Shown one piece after another: positions 5,275 through 12,443 of a DNA stretch of 18,137 bases; position 1 is the first letter of the stretch; every line of letters begins with the position of its first letter. Source of the stretch: Deltaproteobacteria bacterium RBG_13_61_14. Lineage in GTDB: Bacteria; RBG-13-61-14. The translations under genes and the position numbers were made by a program. The notes beneath the pieces were generated by a model. It saw only the letters and a program-made list of their open reading frames with translations, was not told the DNA's origin and made no database searches. Location of the stretch: assembly GCA_001797815.1 (NCBI GenBank), contig MGQK01000012.1:229-18365 (forward strand). The letters run 5' to 3'.

Positions 5275-5742
5275 TCAAAGGGCAGCCGATTTTCTCCTTT
5301 GCCGTTTTCTCCGCTGCGCTTGATAATGGGTGGCGCATAATCCCCTCGCCACCACCACCTTGCCGCACTTTTTCGCCGAGCAAGCCTTGGGTTCCACCCG
5401 CGGCCGGCCCCGCTTCAGCGCCTTCACCCCGTGCTTGAGCCGAAACCGCATCCGCTGATAATGGTAATGACAAAGCCCCTTGGCCGACGCCCACTTCCCG
5501 CATCCGGGGGTCGCGCAGCGCTTACCCTTGTTAATAATTCGTTCCGGCTTGGGCGCGGATACCTTGGTCACGGCCCGGCCCCCGGCTTTGATTCCGGCTT
5601 GCCTCCGCCGCTTCCTGACCCGAGCGGCCGCCGGCCGGCCGGTCCGCCCCAGTTTACTCACCCCTTGCCTGATCTCCCGGAGATCCCCGAGCATCCCTCG
5701 GAGTAACCCCTCCAGACCGCTGAGAACGCTTCCCTTCGCCAT
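5275..5742 (-). CDS. Small basic protein with two Cys3His zinc knuckles and an AT-hook-like motif
   Basis: A 155-residue, very Arg/Lys-rich protein. ATG 5742 was chosen because AAGGAGG lies five bases upstream; the open frame extends back to a TTG at 5799 with no such site. Residues 1-30 form a likely amphipathic helix (LEGLLRGMLGDLREI). Two copies of a C-x4-C-x9-C-x2-H motif follow: C76, C81, C91, H94 and C121, C126, C136, H139, each closing with GLCxxHYQ. Between them RGRPRVEP (111-118) contains the GRP core of an AT-hook. Similar knuckles occur near the ends of some phage HNH nucleases, but no nuclease domain is present here. DNA binding is the natural inference. It lies downstream of, and on the same strand as, a paralogue sharing the second knuckle; 199 bases separate them. 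Confidence 0.7.
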   Translation of the reverse strand: MAKGSVLSGLEGLLRGMLGDLREIRQGVSKLGRTGRPAAARVRKRRRQAGIKAGGRAVTKVSAPKPERIINKGKRCATPGCGKWASAKGLCHYHYQRMRFRLKHGVKALKRGRPRVEPKACSAKKCGKVVVARGLCATHYQAQRRKRQRRKSAAL

Positions 5743-5912
5743 CGCCTCCTCCTTCTTTCCGATCATCCACAGCTTACTCGAATTTCGAAGATTTTTCAAG
5801 TCCTATTTGAAACGGGAACCTGGTCGTGATCGGGGACCTGGACGAATGAAAAGTATATCGTATGTCCTATGTCGGGACAAGAAATGTGCCGGAACTGCAC
5901 CATTCAATCAGG

Positions 5913-5941: not shown

Positions 5942-6781
5942 TCACCGCGACAAGCCCAGGAGCCAGTCGGCCGAGACCTTACAGCGCCGGGCGATCTTCA
6001 CCACCGTCTCCGGCTTCGGACCCACGGCGCCCTGCAAGTAATAACAGACGTGGGCCGGACTTAAGCCCACCCGCGCCGCGAATTGGCTCTGGTTGAGCCG
6101 GCTCTGGCGGAAAAGCCGGCGGAACCTGGGCCAAAACCCCTTGGCCGGGCGGGGCTTCGGTCTGCGCCGGGCCGCGGGAGCGCGAGATCCCAGGTCCTCC
6201 TGCAATCCCAGCAGCCAGTCGGTGGAAACCCCGAAGACGCGGGCGATCAGGATCACGTGGGGGAGATTCGGCCCGCTTCCCGCCAAATAACAGCAAATCG
6301 TTTCCTTGCCGAGACCCAGGCGGGAGACGAGCCCCCTTTGATTCAGCCCGCTCTCCACGCAGAGCCGGCGAAACCGGTCCGGAAACAATTTCAAATTGTG
6401 CCGCCAGGCCTCGCGCTTCCGCTTGGCCTTGGTGGCGGTTCCCAGCAGCCAGGCCGGAAGGCCGCGGCTCGCCTCGTTCAGATGCCGGAACCCCACCGGC
6501 CGGCGAGGCCGAGGCGGCATCTTCTTCCTCCGCTGCCGTTGATAGTGGGTGGTGCACAGTCCCTTGGCCACTACCCATTTGTCGCAGGAGCGGGCCCGGC
6601 ACCGCCGCGGCTTCACCCGGGGCCGGCCCTGCTTGGTCTTGGGCATGGCGCTCCAACTGCGCCGCCGACTCAACTTCTGATAATGCCGCTTGCAAAGGCC
6701 CCTCGCCGTCGCTTCCCGGTCGCATCCCGGCGCCGAGCAGGGCCGGCCTTTGTTCTTCACTTGTCTCCGCCTAACTCCCAT
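5942..6781 (-). CDS. Zinc-knuckle/AT-hook-like protein with tandem XRE-type helix-turn-helix domains
   Basis: Numbering from ATG 6781 (279 residues), two Cys3His knuckles of form C-x4-C-x9-C-x2-H lie at C15, C20, C30, H33 and C61, C66, C76, H79, each ending GLCxxHYQ. QGRPRVKP (51-58), just before the second knuckle, has an AT-hook-like GRP core. After a basic linker come two homologous XRE-family DNA-binding domains at about 133-193 and 216-277. Both open with FRRL, carry LNQ and end in S(T/A)DWLLGL, so the domain was duplicated internally. Knuckle 2 is nearly the same as that of the smaller downstream gene. The start is uncertain: ATG 6781 lacks a good ribosome site, and GTG 6760, preceded by GGCGGAG, would remove seven residues. 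It is probably a DNA-binding regulator or nucleoid-associated protein. I know no named family with this full architecture. Confidence 0.75.
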   Translation of the reverse strand: MGVRRRQVKNKGRPCSAPGCDREATARGLCKRHYQKLSRRRSWSAMPKTKQGRPRVKPRRCRARSCDKWVVAKGLCTTHYQRQRRKKMPPRPRRPVGFRHLNEASRGLPAWLLGTATKAKRKREAWRHNLKLFPDRFRRLCVESGLNQRGLVSRLGLGKETICCYLAGSGPNLPHVILIARVFGVSTDWLLGLQEDLGSRAPAARRRPKPRPAKGFWPRFRRLFRQSRLNQSQFAARVGLSPAHVCYYLQGAVGPKPETVVKIARRCKVSADWLLGLSR

Positions 6782-6914
6782 CCCAAACAACCCCGCTCAG
6801 TGCACGGATAATGGCGGCGCCGGCAGCCGGCAGTCCGCCCTTCGCTTTCGGCCCAAGGCCGGGCTCTTCCCGCGAAACCCTAACCCGGCCGAGCCGGAAC
6901 CAAAGAGAAGATTT

Positions 6915-7071: not shown

Positions 7072-7139
7072 CATTAGCTAAAGTTTAAAGTAAAGTTCTG
7101 ACCCCGATCTTCCTATGTTTAATGGAACGATCGGACCCC
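7072..7139 (-). repeat. GGGGTC-type dispersed repeat, two tandem copies (B1, B2)
   Basis: Read on the minus strand, B2 (7139-7115) is GGGGTCCGATCGTTCCATTA then AACAT, and B1 (7105-7072) is GGGGTCAGAACTTTACTTTA then AACTTTAGCTAATG. They are same-orientation copies nine bases apart and match copy A at 5913-5939. The pair sits just beyond the 3' end of the defence operon, while a related GGGGTCAGGCCCC block (12423-12443) sits just before its promoter, so these repeats bracket the operon. Confidence 0.7.
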
Positions 7140-7154
7140 AAAACATTCTTATTC

Positions 7155-8168
7155 TTATTCAAATTGCAGCCTATTAGCCCAATCTATCACCTCGGCTATT
7201 ACCTTCTTGACTTCAGTAAGATTAATAACCGTAACGAAAGATGGCGTTATTGAAAAAAATGTTCTAAAATGAAACTCGATAGTTCTTTCTCGCTTGTACA
7301 TTGGAAGCCCTGTTTCAATACGGCTTAGGTCGTAATTCCCATGAGACGAATGAAATTTCTGCCATTTCCAATCTACCTGCGCAATACTGCTCGGGCACCG
7401 CAAAAGCAGCCTTTTACTAACGGTAGAAATCTTAATCAGTGGTAATCTTTCTTCGGACTGAGATTTAATTAGCCTTGAGTAAATACCAGGTTTGAGAATT
7501 CTTAGCTCTGCATTAGTTACCAGCAAAGGAACTAGAATGATCGCCGCTGCTGGATCACATTCTTTTGTGAACATTCTAAATCTTTCAATTGCAACGTAAT
7601 GCAAACAGTCTCGTAGCTGATGGAGACCTGTGCTAATAGTCGGTATCTTGGGATTATTCTTCATAGTTTTATTTATTGTATCAGACTCTTCTTGAAATCC
7701 TAATGTTGTTCCACGAACACACTTAGGTATTTGACCATGCGAAAGCTTGGCTAATTTAATTTTTTTAGGAAACTTTATAAGCTTATTTTCTTCTGAAAAA
7801 GGTAAATGGGGTTTTCTGTCTTGCCAAAGAAATGGGCGCCATTCGTCAAAAACAATTTGAGATAAGGAAGTGGAATCCGGCATAAAAAGCCAGATCAGTT
7901 TTTGAGGATCGCAATATTTAAATTCTATTAAAAAATATATTTGAATATGACCTGGATCAACGGGATCATGTTCAGAAGGCACACTGGCAGCAAAATCAAT
8001 GGAACGTTGAATGGGTATCAAGTTCTCATCTAAAGAGCTAAACCCATACTCTGGCTCGATCCAATCGGCTTTGAGTTCTGATATTAAAAAATCATAAACA
8101 GTCATTTCAAGCGGAATACCAGAGGCCATGATGGTCCTAGAATCCGAAAACTTAGATTTTCCTAACAT
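7155..8168 (-). CDS. Hypothetical protein with candidate PD-(D/E)xK nuclease motif, third gene of defence operon
   Basis: A 337-residue, AT-rich gene whose ATG lies four bases beyond the preceding stop codon, so it is surely cotranscribed. An internal ATG at 8129 (residue 14) is an alternative start. No family is recognised with confidence. The N-terminal quarter contains YDFLISELKADWIEPEYGF, then SIDFAAS (Asp58) and, about 24 residues on, FLIEFKY (Glu82, Lys84). That is the spacing and strand pattern of a PD-(D/E)xK nuclease core (Asp, then ExK), with Glu31 in the preceding helix. The remainder (ILVPLLVTNAELRIL at about 215-229) resembles the shell of a restriction-like fold, but this is inference. 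No signal peptide or membrane segment is seen. The AT-rich codon use is unlike flanking metabolic and pilus genes and suggests transfer. Confidence 0.8.
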   Translation of the reverse strand: MLGKSKFSDSRTIMASGIPLEMTVYDFLISELKADWIEPEYGFSSLDENLIPIQRSIDFAASVPSEHDPVDPGHIQIYFLIEFKYCDPQKLIWLFMPDSTSLSQIVFDEWRPFLWQDRKPHLPFSEENKLIKFPKKIKLAKLSHGQIPKCVRGTTLGFQEESDTINKTMKNNPKIPTISTGLHQLRDCLHYVAIERFRMFTKECDPAAAIILVPLLVTNAELRILKPGIYSRLIKSQSEERLPLIKISTVSKRLLLRCPSSIAQVDWKWQKFHSSHGNYDLSRIETGLPMYKRERTIEFHFRTFFSITPSFVTVINLTEVKKVIAEVIDWANRLQFE

Positions 8169-8172
8169 CCCG

Positions 8173-9054
8173 TCAAGCCTTATGAATTATGTTAGGTGTT
8201 GTCACCGATCTCTTTATGTTAATTAGTTTCTGTTCGAACATCCATTTTTTCAGGACTTTTGGAATTTCATTTTCGGCATTTTGTGGATTAAATTCTCTAT
8301 ATATTCTTCCTATTAAATCAGTTGTTAAATATTTAAGTGTTTTATCCTTTAGAAGGCATACCGGTTTATTAAGCGCCAGCATGTAGCCAACCTCAAGAGA
8401 TACATTGGGATTAATATCATCTTCATTAATTCTTTCAAATATTGCAATACCAAATCTGCATCCATGCATATAGGTTCGAATGTTGTTAAAAAGTTCGCTG
8501 GCATATTCTTTATCGTCCGCTCTCAATACTTTTATATTAAATAATTTGCAAGTATCCTTCACAGCTTGTATAACCTTTTTATGTATTGGTGTATTTTGAT
8601 ACTTCATCATTAAGAATGCACAATTGTCGCTTTCTCTGTGATCTTTATGAAATAGCTGTAGAAATGAAGATATTTCCGCCGGAACATCAATAAATACATT
8701 TTTATTGGAATCCAAAGAAGAAATAGTAAAACTTACAAAACGACACGTATGACCTGTAGGAAACTCTGGAGAAACTCTCGCTATACCTTGCAACCAGTTA
8801 ATATTTCCTAATATATTGAATGAGGTTCTAAGCTTATCCAGGTCGATAAGCCACTGCTGATAATTTATAGCGGTTAGCCATTCAATTCCCTCTTGTTTTA
8901 CTACATCTAAAATTATTGATAACATTTCTCTTTTATTCGTTATATCAGATTTAAAAAAAACAATATTGATTGCCTCTGAAGGCGAATCGTGATTGCCGCG
9001 AATATCATAATTGGGGCGATTATAGTAATCAATCTTTATATTAATGTTTATCAT
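8173..9054 (-). CDS. Protein with TIR-like / nucleoside deoxyribosyltransferase-like C-terminal domain, second gene of defence operon
   Basis: A 293-residue, strongly AT-rich gene whose ATG overlaps the stop of the restriction-modification gene (ATGA, 9051-9054). Residues 1-140 are not recognised. Residues 144-255 form a Rossmann-like domain: CAFLMMKYQNTPI, then NIKVLRADD (Asp180), IRTYMHGCRFGIAIFE, and NPNVSLEVGYMLAL with Glu221, followed by KPVCLLKD. The (F/V)MM, D, NPNV.(Y/L)E.G and KPV.LLKD order is characteristic of predicted nucleotide-binding TIR-like and nucleoside 2-deoxyribosyltransferase-like domains. Several of these cleave NAD or nucleotides in anti-phage systems. The unique N-terminal half could be a sensor or partner-binding part. 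NAD cleavage is inferred, not shown. Leakage of such an effector would be toxic, so activation by infection would be expected. Confidence 0.85.
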   Translation of the reverse strand: MININIKIDYYNRPNYDIRGNHDSPSEAINIVFFKSDITNKREMLSIILDVVKQEGIEWLTAINYQQWLIDLDKLRTSFNILGNINWLQGIARVSPEFPTGHTCRFVSFTISSLDSNKNVFIDVPAEISSFLQLFHKDHRESDNCAFLMMKYQNTPIHKKVIQAVKDTCKLFNIKVLRADDKEYASELFNNIRTYMHGCRFGIAIFERINEDDINPNVSLEVGYMLALNKPVCLLKDKTLKYLTTDLIGRIYREFNPQNAENEIPKVLKKWMFEQKLINIKRSVTTPNIIHKA

Positions 9055-12000
9055 TTCGGCTCCACTTTTAATGGGCTATTTTCAATTATATTGATTTCTT
9101 CCTCATTCAGACAATACAATTCATACACAAGCCGATCAATCTGGGCGGCCGTGGTAGAAATCTGCCGATCCAGGCTTTCCTTCTCATGCGCTGTTTTTAC
9201 CTCTGGCTTCTGCTTGTTCAATTTCAACATCGCTTCAACCAAATCATCAAACTGTTTGTAAAGAGTATGATCCTTAGAGTTTTTAATCTCCTGAATCGGA
9301 AGATTCTTTATAAACCGAGACTCGTAGCTGAAATAGCCGCCCCTCATGGTTGTCGCCGTCTGGCGGATAAACCACTCCAAGAGTTTGCTGTTCAGAAACC
9401 CCAAGACATACTGCCGCGAATACTCGGGCAATACCAGGATTCCATAGCCGCCTGCAACCCCTCCTGTAAAAAAGGTCTCACCAGTTTCATCTAAAGAAAA
9501 GGAAGAACGGGCGGCAAGATCGGGCGTAAAAATCTTAGGCAAGTGCATCACATCAAGAGCCTGATTTCTTCCATAGGCATACCAACTTTTACCACGCATC
9601 TTGCCTCTTTCACGGTTCTCCAAGTAGAGTTTATTATCAAGAAAATACTCCCATGTCAAGGGATAACGCGATTTCATGATTGTTTCCGGAATCAATCCCA
9701 TGGAACCTTCCGGTTGGCGCTCGTATGGAAAAAGGATCAAGCGGTTGGTATGGGACAAATAATAGGATTTGCTGTCTCCCCCTTTGATCAAAGGATGAAG
9801 CAGGTCCGGCTCCAGCCAATAGTCGGCCTCTTTTTCTTTGGAGTGGACTTTAACCTTTTTCTTCTCCCGTTTGATTTCTTCCACGATAAAGATTGCATCG
9901 GCGCTGGTCTTGAGGCCCTGAAAGATGCGACTGGTGACATGCTCAAGCCTAGTCGGCATCTTCTGTAAGCGTTCCAGTAAAGACGCGCCCGGACCGATGG
10001 CAAAGTTCCACTCATCTGACGTCAGAGTTGACGAAGAGACAATTCCTTCTATGGCTTTGCCGCTTCTGCGCCACTCGGGTAGATCGTCAACTTTCAATAC
10101 ATGGCACTGGTCCCGGCCGGATTTTTCCAGGAAAAGCAAACAGGTATAATTGCTGGCGCCTTCAAACACTTGTTGGTCCCCGAAATGGACCACCTCTGCC
10201 AGGTTCTTCCCCCTGGCCAGGTAGTCACGCAAAGGCTGGCCATATTTTGCATTAAAGAACTTGTGCGGGAGAATAAAGCCGAAGCATCCTTTGCTGGTTA
10301 AAAGTTTCAGGCTCTTCTCCACGAAGACGGCATATATATCGTAATTGCCCTTGCTCGCGGCGGCATAATGCCTTTTGAAGTATTTCGCATCTAATGGCGT
10401 TGACTCGCTCATGGTCTGAATTCGGATATACGGCGGATTCCCGATGACGACATCGAAGCCGGTCTTATGGTTCGCGGTTCCCGGTTCGCGGTTTCCCTTA
10501 ACACCTCTGCCCTCTGTGCTCTTTGTGTCTCGGTGGTGAAAAATTTCCGGAAATTCTTTGTCCCAATCAAAGGCATTGATGCGGAGAATTTCTTCCTGAT
10601 CGAACATGGCAATTTGCTGGCCCTGATAGAAGTCGGAGCCGATCAGGGAATTGCCGCATTTGATGTTGGCGGAGAGGTCGGGGAGGGCGCGTTGTTTGTA
10701 GAAGAGTTTCAACTGGTTGAGGGATTCTTCGGTCTCGCCTTCCAGGCATTTCAAGAGGAGCGAGAGCTTGGTGACTTCCACGGCCTGGGGGTCTATGTCA
10801 ACGCCGAAGATGTGATCGAGCAGGATGCGTTTGCGTTCGGCGGTGGTTAAGCGCCAGGCGCCGCCGGCGGCCTGATACAATGGTGCGCGGGTGTGGGCAC
10901 CCGCGCCCCTAAAGTCCGTTGCGCGGCTGAGGTCAGCCGCGCCCCGAAAGTCTTGACCATTTGATTTTTCTTCTTTCGTGCTCTTTTCGTGTGCTTCGTG
11001 GATATACTGATCGCGGTGCCAGTCGAGGAGATATTGATAAGCGCCGAGGAGGAAGGAGCCGGAGCCGCAGGCCGGATCCAAGATTCTTAATGGTTGCGCG
11101 TCTTGGGCGCGATGAATCGCGCCCCTACCTTTTTGTAGCCCACCCTTCGCGGCCTGGCGAAGGGTGGGGTTGCCTGACACCTGCTCGGGGGTTTTGCCCT
11201 CGAGCAATTTGCCAACGGTATTTTTGACGATGTAGTCCACGATATAAGTCGGCGTGTAGTAAACCCCGCCGGCTTTTTTGACCTCCGGCTTTTCCTCCAC
11301 CTTGGCCTGGTGGCCGGCGGTGAGGCGGATGACCTTGCCCAGGAATTGCTCATAGACCTGGCCCAGGATATCCGCGGGCAGCACCGAGAACTCATACGGG
11401 CTTTCCGGGTAATAGAGGCTCTTGAGGATTTCCTTGAGCACCTTGTCGTCCAGGACCAGGCCGGGCGTGAGGGTGTCCGGCTCGGGCCGGTCCTTTTCTT
11501 TTTTGAAGTGGAAGAGCCCGGAGTTGTAGCGGTCGTCGGCGTTGGCCAAGAGGTGAAAGAGGCGTTGGTAAACGCGCTCGCCGTTGTGCAAGGCCTGGAG
11601 CCGGCCGTATTGCTCGATGCCGCGGTCTTCGCAGATGCGCAGAAAGATGATGCGGTCGAGCGTGGCCTGGACCGCGAAGTTGAGCTGGCGGGTGTTGAGG
11701 CGGGGATTGCGGAGCGCGATATTTTTGGCCAGCTGGTCCCGCCAGGCCTCGATCTCCTGGAGGAAAGCGGAATCCACCTCCGCGGTGCCTTTCTTTTTGC
11801 GGGTGGTCTCGGCGAACTGGTCAAAGGAGCCTTTGAGCACGGCGTCCTTGGCAAAAATGTCGGCGATCTCGGACCAGCGCTCGAGGTATTCGGTATAGGC
11901 CAAATAGAGGATGCGGCCGGCGCTGGCCTTGTCGTTGGCCGCGGGCTTGATCCGGCAGTCATAGACCGCGAATTCCTCGAAGTCGGAGAGGACGGAGAGG

Positions 12001-12353
12001 GGGAGCTTGGCCGACCAGGCGTAGCGGCGGAGTTGGAAGGCGGGTTCGGGGTTGTGCTTGAGGTCCACCCCGGGCTTCTTGGCTTCGAGGAAAAATTTGC
12101 GGGCGCCGCCGATGCGGAAGCAATAGTCGGGCGCTTTGGTGACGCCGCCGACCTTGAGAGCGGCCTCGTGGACCACGTCTTTGTAGGGTTCGGCAAAGCC
12201 GGAGGCGTTGTGCACGTCCCAGCCCAGGGCGATGAAGAAGGGGTCGAGGAATTCGACGCGGAGCTGGGTCTCGTGGTAGCCGGGGGAGAGGTAGGCTTCG
12301 CGGTTGTGTTGGAAGCGGGCGATTAGGGAGGAGATTTCAGCCGGTGCGGTCAT
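9051..12353 (-). CDS. Type IIG-like restriction-modification protein (fused nuclease, N6-adenine methyltransferase and specificity domain)
   Basis: A 1100-residue single-chain restriction and modification enzyme. ATG 12353 has AAGG nine bases upstream and a promoter 24 bases further up. The TTG at 12404, which would add 17 residues, lies on that promoter's -35 hexamer and is rejected. An N-terminal nuclease core shows APDYCF (Asp76) and FLEAKKP (Glu90, Lys92). Methyltransferase motif I is ILDPACGSGSFL (424-435), with GVDIDPQAVEVTKLSLLL shortly after. Catalytic motif IV is IGNPPYIR (637-644), of the N6-adenine class. The C-terminal third (TTMRGGYFSYESRFIKNLPIQ near 1018-1038) is a TaqI-type specificity domain. 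It methylates self DNA at a short asymmetric site and cuts unmethylated DNA near it. Unusually, three linkers contain in-frame repeat sequences (see repeats). GC content falls from the 5' to the 3' half, hinting at a mosaic origin. Confidence 0.93.
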   Translation of the reverse strand: MTAPAEISSLIARFQHNREAYLSPGYHETQLRVEFLDPFFIALGWDVHNASGFAEPYKDVVHEAALKVGGVTKAPDYCFRIGGARKFFLEAKKPGVDLKHNPEPAFQLRRYAWSAKLPLSVLSDFEEFAVYDCRIKPAANDKASAGRILYLAYTEYLERWSEIADIFAKDAVLKGSFDQFAETTRKKKGTAEVDSAFLQEIEAWRDQLAKNIALRNPRLNTRQLNFAVQATLDRIIFLRICEDRGIEQYGRLQALHNGERVYQRLFHLLANADDRYNSGLFHFKKEKDRPEPDTLTPGLVLDDKVLKEILKSLYYPESPYEFSVLPADILGQVYEQFLGKVIRLTAGHQAKVEEKPEVKKAGGVYYTPTYIVDYIVKNTVGKLLEGKTPEQVSGNPTLRQAAKGGLQKGRGAIHRAQDAQPLRILDPACGSGSFLLGAYQYLLDWHRDQYIHEAHEKSTKEEKSNGQDFRGAADLSRATDFRGAGAHTRAPLYQAAGGAWRLTTAERKRILLDHIFGVDIDPQAVEVTKLSLLLKCLEGETEESLNQLKLFYKQRALPDLSANIKCGNSLIGSDFYQGQQIAMFDQEEILRINAFDWDKEFPEIFHHRDTKSTEGRGVKGNREPGTANHKTGFDVVIGNPPYIRIQTMSESTPLDAKYFKRHYAAASKGNYDIYAVFVEKSLKLLTSKGCFGFILPHKFFNAKYGQPLRDYLARGKNLAEVVHFGDQQVFEGASNYTCLLFLEKSGRDQCHVLKVDDLPEWRRSGKAIEGIVSSSTLTSDEWNFAIGPGASLLERLQKMPTRLEHVTSRIFQGLKTSADAIFIVEEIKREKKKVKVHSKEKEADYWLEPDLLHPLIKGGDSKSYYLSHTNRLILFPYERQPEGSMGLIPETIMKSRYPLTWEYFLDNKLYLENRERGKMRGKSWYAYGRNQALDVMHLPKIFTPDLAARSSFSLDETGETFFTGGVAGGYGILVLPEYSRQYVLGFLNSKLLEWFIRQTATTMRGGYFSYESRFIKNLPIQEIKNSKDHTLYKQFDDLVEAMLKLNKQKPEVKTAHEKESLDRQISTTAAQIDRLVYELYCLNEEEINIIENSPLKVEPK
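10469..10538. repeat. Repeat block read in frame inside the restriction-modification gene (third site)
   Basis: Two elements abut. 10469-10497 is a direct duplication, GGTTCGCGGTTCCC followed by GGTTCGCGGTTTCCC. 10501-10538 is a CTCTGTG-type array (CTCTGTGCTCTTTGTGTCTC) related to the hairpin at 6915-6996. On the minus strand they encode FHHRDTKSTEGRGVKGNREP and a short tail, immediately before the FDVVIGNPPY catalytic motif. In relatives I remember, the linker from FPEI to the GFD of this motif is only a few residues. Confidence 0.75.
10884..10955. repeat. Two tandem GC-rich palindromes encoding a 12-residue near-repeat (second site)
   Basis: Perfect palindromes lie at 10885-10906 (arms GCGCGGGTG and CACCCGCGC, 4-base loop) and 10921-10942 (arms GCGCGGCTGA and TCAGCCGCGC, 2-base loop). 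Each is followed by GCCCC(T/G)AAAGTC. Together they form two 36-base units in the restriction-modification gene and encode QDFRGAADLSRA followed by TDFRGAGAHTRA, a protein near-repeat produced by the DNA palindromes. Confidence 0.8.
10971..11003. repeat. CACGAA-type repeat block read in frame (second site)
   Basis: The minus strand reads ATCCACGAAGCACACGAAAA then GAGCACGAAAGAA, four CACGAA-like units. This is the same type as the inner arms of the intergenic hairpin at 5086-5174, including the leading ATCCACGAA. It encodes IHEAHEKSTKEE in the restriction-modification protein, directly beside the palindrome pair at 10884-10955. Confidence 0.75.
11105..11168. repeat. Two perfect GC-rich palindromes read in frame just before methyltransferase motif I (first site)
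   Basis: 11105-11124 has perfect 9-base arms GGGCGCGAT and ATCGCGCCC with a 2-base loop. 11139-11168 has perfect 12-base arms CCCACCCTTCGC and GCGAAGGGTGGG with a 6-base loop. On the minus strand they encode NPTLRQAAKGGLQ and KGRGAIHRAQDAQ, a stretch between the usual KTPEQVS and LRILDPACGSG segments where relatives I know have almost no linker. Confidence 0.8.
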
Positions 12354-12376
12354 GGCGGGTGGCCTTGGATGGCTCC

Positions 12377-12404
12377 ATACTATCTTGATTATTATTTCTG
12401 TCAA
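12377..12404 (-). promoter_or_regulatory. Sigma70-type promoter of the restriction-modification operon
   Basis: On the minus strand, TTGACA (12404-12399, perfect -35) is followed after 16 bases by TAGTAT (12382-12377, 4 of 6 match to the -10 consensus). The ATG at 12353 would lie about 17 bases after the expected transcription start. The -35 hexamer overlaps the alternative TTG start of the open frame, which argues against using that TTG. Confidence 0.6.
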
Positions 12405-12422
12405 GCAAACTTGTTAAGTTTT

Positions 12423-12443
12423 GGGGCCTGACCCCATGTTAAC
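12423..12443. repeat. GGGGTCAGGCCCC block, copy C of the GGGGTC repeat type
   Basis: The plus strand reads GGGGCCTGACCCCATGTTAAC; the reverse complement begins GTTAACATGGGGTCAG. It shares GGGGTCAG and the AACAT word with copies A and B but is otherwise divergent, and its 13-base core is nearly self-complementary. It lies between two divergent promoters (12377-12404 minus, 12451-12479 plus) and so could also be a regulatory site. Confidence 0.5.

Follow-up and report, generated by a model that had tools for sequence, protein, structure and literature searches.

A type IIG restriction-modification gene translationally coupled to a putative TIR-like effector gene, in a slot occupied by different genes in related loci

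Restriction-modification (RM) systems are commonly viewed as scissors that work alone. RM-linked suicide effectors are already known: the prrC gene of EcoprrI and the HEPN genes of other RM operons encode effectors proposed to step in once restriction has failed (PMC3710099, PMC12707154), and the layout described here is a variant of them. Like the guardians of the EcoprrI-PrrC, HEPN, and Abi kinds, the operon that we analyzed, within a window of 18,137 nt (the whole stretch of DNA under study), pairs an RM enzyme with a linked gene for a putative effector, and the feature typical of PrrC-type guardians, an effector gene inside the RM operon, appears here as an ATGA overlap. The components differ, however: EcoprrI-PrrC consists of a type IC hsd locus and an anticodon nuclease, whereas the window encodes a single-chain type IIG RM enzyme and an effector of the TIR/DRHyd type. 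By analogy, the operon is best read as a putative type IIG counterpart of EcoprrI-PrrC. We found no described type IIG system with this layout in the open-access literature, which is no proof of absence.

The operon comprises three ORFs on the minus strand between positions 7155 and 12404, in the order type IIG RM gene, TIR-like gene, and gene 3 (Table 1). A preliminary description, made from the DNA letters, had reported three genes on one strand with an ATGA overlap followed by a 4-base gap, and the junctions seen in the sequence agree with it in every respect. The junction of the RM and TIR-like genes reads GGAGCCGAAATGATAAAC, with a GGAG ribosome-binding site preceding the shared ATGA; the 4-base gap separates the stop of the TIR-like gene from the start of gene 3. 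The coordinates also held, except that the RM gene had been taken to start at 12404. In a homologue alignment, RM homologues start at MTAPAEI, with the ATG at 12353, and the TTG at 12404 opens the TTGACA -35 hexamer of a likely promoter; the start is therefore 12353. The single visible promoter of the same description is present as a TTGACA/TAGTAT site, but promoter-like sites as a class are no more frequent than expected (11 versus 7.0 +/- 2.6 in shuffles). We propose that gene 3 is cotranscribed with the RM and TIR-like genes.

Table 1. Features of the operon, in positions of the window
Feature	Position	Strand	Remark
RM gene	9051..12353	minus	1100 aa; start corrected from 12404
TIR-like gene	8173..9054	minus	293 aa
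Gene 3	7155..8168	minus	orphan, 337 aa
ATGA overlap, RM stop/TIR-like start	9051..9054	minus	seen in sequence
Promoter-like site TTGACA - 16 - TAGTAT	12377..12404	minus	consensus match only; 5' of corrected RM start
RM motifs	PD92...ExK; DPACGSG near 443-449; NPPY 656		residues numbered from 12404 start

The assignment of the RM gene as a type IIG restriction-modification enzyme, already made in the preliminary description, is beyond doubt: the protein matches the PADLOC type IIG family PDLC03604 (E 3e-256) and the Pfam families Eco57I, N6_Mtase, TaqI_C, and HSDR_N. A single chain carries an HSDR_N-like PD-(D/E)xK nuclease, an Eco57I/N6 methylase, and a TaqI-like target-recognition C-terminus. 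The nuclease motif (PD...LEAKK), the SAM-binding motif (DPACGSG), and the catalytic motif (NPPY) are all intact, and nine relatives conserve them apart from single residues; based on these motifs, the enzyme is predicted to methylate host sites and to cut unmodified incoming DNA. It has nuclease, methylase, and recognition parts in common with PDLC03604, whose definition includes neither the in-frame inserts derived from repeats nor the coupled genes downstream. The family is common, with a match in 42 of 290 sampled genomes, and the same genome holds a second copy (L087, on contig C33) that is 77% identical over the N-terminal 394 residues and 33-34% identical in the recognition half.

To judge from their sequences, relatives of the RM gene carry different genes in the position occupied by the TIR-like gene, several of them from known effector families, and this is what we find in place of a three-gene system. 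A SIR2 (Dsr1-like) gene overlaps the RM gene by 4 bases and is followed by a TIR protein (L106), while at L101 a membrane protein overlaps by 4 and is followed by bSEFIR. Overlaps of 8 bases join the RM gene to a Fic gene (L116) and to the gene for a GIY-YIG/DUF4357 protein (L131), and a gene read as nuclease-like from its D...ExK motif overlaps by 4 at both L095 and L121. Unassigned coupled genes lie at -8 and -14 (L120 and L119, respectively), a DUF3800 gene lies at +9 (L124), and behind the same-genome paralogue a HEPN-TPR gene follows after 138 bases. Two comparisons reveal turnover at this position. Within one genus, L095 and L120 encode RM enzymes that are 93% identical over their full length, and their coupled genes are unrelated; L095 and L121 have coupled genes that are 58% identical and recognition domains that are only 29-34% identical. 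Thus, specificity domain and coupled gene can each be replaced without the other.

When coupling is defined strictly, as a downstream gene of at least 150 aa on the same strand and -60 to +30 bases from the RM gene, it is seen in 9 of 29 complete RM loci; one of the nine genes (L103) reads as an ordinary hexapeptide acyltransferase. Tight same-strand gene spacing is common across bacteria generally, so the case for a slot rests on the turnover and the effector identities and not on this count. Nor is the slot universal: on plasmids, most RM relatives (30-34% identity) have no coupled gene behind them, and such relatives often adjoin a second methylase. Phylum-wise searches for further RM relatives, with 7-10 genomes per phylum tried, added little. 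Because related RM genes carry quite different genes in the same place, we regard this position as a plug-in slot for back-up defence rather than as part of a fixed three-gene system. On balance, though without great assurance, we favor the reading that the window holds a defence operon with restriction first and suicide second, built on an exchangeable slot that is filled here by a TIR-like effector.

An alternative, which we consider rather unlikely, is a coincidence within a defence island, in which the TIR-like gene and gene 3 are independent, landed behind the RM gene, and use its promoter without any functional link. The TIR-like protein consists of an N-terminal module (residues ~1-119) and a C-terminal catalytic-type domain (~122-280) with NPNVSLEVG, and the distribution of both parts is consistent with such independence. 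The C-terminal domain has matches of ~50% identity in lone genes of small ColE1-like plasmids from Citrobacter, Klebsiella, Salmonella, and one E. coli, including 3.6-kb plasmids on which it is the sole cargo. It also occurs, at 36-52% identity and including single chromosomal genes, in Planctomycetes, Ignavibacteriales, Methylobacter, Imhoffiella, Xanthomonas, Bacteroidia, and a deltaproteobacterium. The eight genomic relatives and the plasmid genes have several different N-termini, and the fetched flanks of none contain a homologue of the window RM gene. These stand-alone homologues, varied N-termini, and flanks indicate that the domain is an autonomous, reusable effector module. No viral copies of the protein were found when looked for. 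The N-terminal module recurs once elsewhere in the same genome (G000:C79), 48% identical and fused to a Cap12-type TIR (PF10137), with no RM gene beside it and in an AT-rich patch of its own; it can therefore pair with two different effector domains. Across 386 genomes, its only other matches were marginal (E 0.003-0.006), in ORFs of no interest. Both small genes of the window are, moreover, far more AT-rich than the host (32% GC for the TIR-like gene and 38% for gene 3). Set against coincidence are the ATGA coupling here and the overlaps of 4 to 14 bases with quite different genes in several relatives, as well as the persistence of one coupled gene where the recognition domain has changed, all of which suggest selection for the arrangement. 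The coupling of the RM gene to the TIR-like gene is most simply read as restriction backed by a putative effector.

The C79 locus (L016:10727-13184) consists of two AT-rich genes, with 33-36% GC in surroundings of about 63%: one encodes an unknown 437-aa protein and the other the 311-aa fusion of the N-terminal module to the Cap12-type TIR, the closest plasmid relatives of which are rhizobial. In a Bacteroidia MAG (L025:4363-5817), the TIR-like domain is preceded by a complete FtsZ (Tubulin E 3.5e-37, FtsZ_C E 1.7e-14), a fusion that might act as a cytoskeleton-sensing effector.

Tight spacing of all three genes and the low GC common to the two small ones would also fit a true three-component system, with the RM enzyme, the TIR-like protein, and the gene 3 product in one complex; this we judge improbable. 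The exact trio occurs once, without a second example in the 290 genomes searched for the RM gene or the 386 searched for gene 3, and relatives of the effector lack both partners. Beside none of the RM relatives searched did we find a homologue of gene 3 or of the TIR-like gene; a marginal match at L114 (E 0.01) was taken as chance. Gene 3 itself has no family match (Pfam, PADLOC, and further family searches) and no detectable relatives in genome contigs, the 386 genomes, plasmids (to E 10), phages, or viral contigs. It carries one PD-(D/E)xK-like motif, D58...E82-F-K84, of a type that occurs at chance level, in 6 of 184 similarly sized ORFs and in 3.4% of shuffles. Its single-sequence AlphaFold model has a pLDDT of 28.7, and its reading as a PD-(D/E)xK nuclease is unsupported beyond the chance-level motif.

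The preliminary description had suggested a combined system of all three genes. What stands of this is an RM gene translationally coupled to an effector gene of the TIR/deoxyribohydrolase kind; what falls is the idea of three genes as one specific system. Synteny of the trio is not conserved, and the occurrence of the small genes away from RM neighbors, which that description had named as speaking against its proposal, is what we observe for the TIR-like gene, both for its homologues without this RM gene and for its N-terminal module at C79. Stand-alone relatives with varied N-termini, none beside this RM family, together with the recurrence of the N-terminal module, thus lead us to conclude that this is not a conserved three-gene system.

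By sequence, the TIR-like protein scores below the Pfam gathering thresholds of both PF05014 (22.9 versus 28.8 bits) and PF10137 (17.3 versus 24.7 bits), which places it in a distinct subfamily that has N-terminal modules of its own; its TIR-like identity, as originally proposed, becomes firm by structure. Residues 125-280 are for the most part confidently predicted in an AlphaFold model that drew on eight relatives, and VIA-align yields Z scores of 12-14, over 112-134 residues, to DNPH1, MilB, and nucleoside deoxyribosyltransferases, closely followed by the SPARTA TIR (12.6) and TIR-STING (11.9). These modeled similarities firmly support a flavodoxin-like fold of the TIR/DRHyd superfamily. 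In the N-terminal part of the model, where pLDDT is mostly <50, no sensor fold is resolved. The catalytic-type glutamate E221 of the NPNVxxE motif is invariant across all alignment rows, and this motif and a Rossmann-like fold are shared with the TIR-DRHyd-SLOG clade, the Cap12/Pycsar TIRs (PF10137), and the deoxyribosyltransferases (PF05014). A PADLOC match to JetB3 (E 0.0086) was judged to be chance.

MilB-type enzymes process hydroxymethyl-CMP. Nucleotide salvage stays compatible with a fold whose closest matches include the metabolic enzymes DNPH1 and MilB, but a role in metabolism, as a nucleotide hydrolase or as a pool modifier for modified-base metabolism, seems to us highly improbable compared with that of a suicide effector, given the protein's weak sequence match to the Cap12/Pycsar TIR family, the many different N-termini in front of the domain, and the nearly equal scores of the SPARTA and STING TIRs.

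The TIR-DRHyd-SLOG clade takes in domains of this sort, and its DRHyd members in conflict systems have been described as NADases or cyclases (PMC9503650), which makes NAD the likeliest substrate. Swarozyc (DUF4062) likewise uses a TIR-like NADase domain in abortive infection, and it assembles with the phage portal (PMC13174449); unlike Swarozyc, the window protein has no DUF4062 match in a Pfam search. From the modeled fold, the product of the TIR-like gene is most likely an effector of the TIR/deoxyribohydrolase kind, a putative N-glycosidase that would act as an NADase or other nucleotide hydrolase and that probably destroys a vital cell metabolite. With moderate confidence, we assign the occupant of the slot in the window to a little-studied subfamily of DRHyd/TIR-type effectors.

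For the restriction-first, suicide-second operon that we favor, we suggest the following sequence of events, in which the activity, substrate, and trigger of the TIR-like protein, and any physical coupling of it to the RM enzyme, are what we infer. The type IIG enzyme would methylate host sites and cut unmodified incoming DNA, while the TIR-like effector would stay dormant until triggered by inhibition of the RM enzyme or by a phage product. Its N-terminal module may sense this trigger and free the C-terminal enzyme, which would then halt growth and thereby the phage; gene 3 could encode either another effector or a protein that partners the sensor.

Base composition agrees with exchange of the coupled gene together with the target-recognition end of the RM gene. 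GC falls along the window RM gene from 61% at its 5' end to 46% at its 3' end, and across 29 loci the 3' ends of RM genes are GC-poorer than the 5' ends (Wilcoxon p 1e-5, with loci treated as independent though the genomes are related). The difference between downstream and upstream-flank GC is -14.5 points in loci with a coupled gene versus -2.9 in the others (p 0.002, kinship ignored). With moderate confidence, the best reading is an RM chassis that takes an exchangeable cassette carrying recognition and effector parts. A wider proposal, which we advance tentatively, is that this type IIG family serves generally to carry back-up defence, in which AT-rich cassettes (the RM 3' half plus an effector) would be swapped onto a conserved nuclease-methylase chassis, specificity and suicide module would turn over together or apart, and a DRHyd-type effector would guard the RM enzyme here. 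Should interchangeable suicide effectors prove routine in this family, many genes now annotated only as neighbors of RM genes would become candidate guardian effectors, and near-identical RM enzymes with different effectors would offer a natural experiment on effector release.

The operon was also considered as a mobile unit, and this was rejected since the flanking inverted repeats GGACCCCAAAAC/GTTTTGGGGCC belong to a dispersed genomic repeat with 37 copies. The repeat TTTTGGGGCCTGACCCC and its close variants, at 7132-7143 and 12418-12428 of the window, were found at 37 sites in the genome, and a reversed control gave no match. Elsewhere in the window, a Fic-family gene (1112-2164) shares 51% identity with the Fic gene of L116, the one overlapping the RM stop codon there, and two neighboring minus-strand proteins (5275-5799 and 5942-6790) have CxxxGCxxxAxxxGLCxxHY repeats in common, the second with two HTH-like segments. 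The three in-frame inserts in the RM gene, at 10460-10530, 10880-10955, and 11087-11190, are dispersed or palindromic repeats that are missing from most relatives, although the third is common to the paralogue L087. At the site of the first insert, the RM genes of L088 and L095 carry other repeats, suggesting that the loop before the SAM-binding motif has been invaded repeatedly while the frame stayed open.
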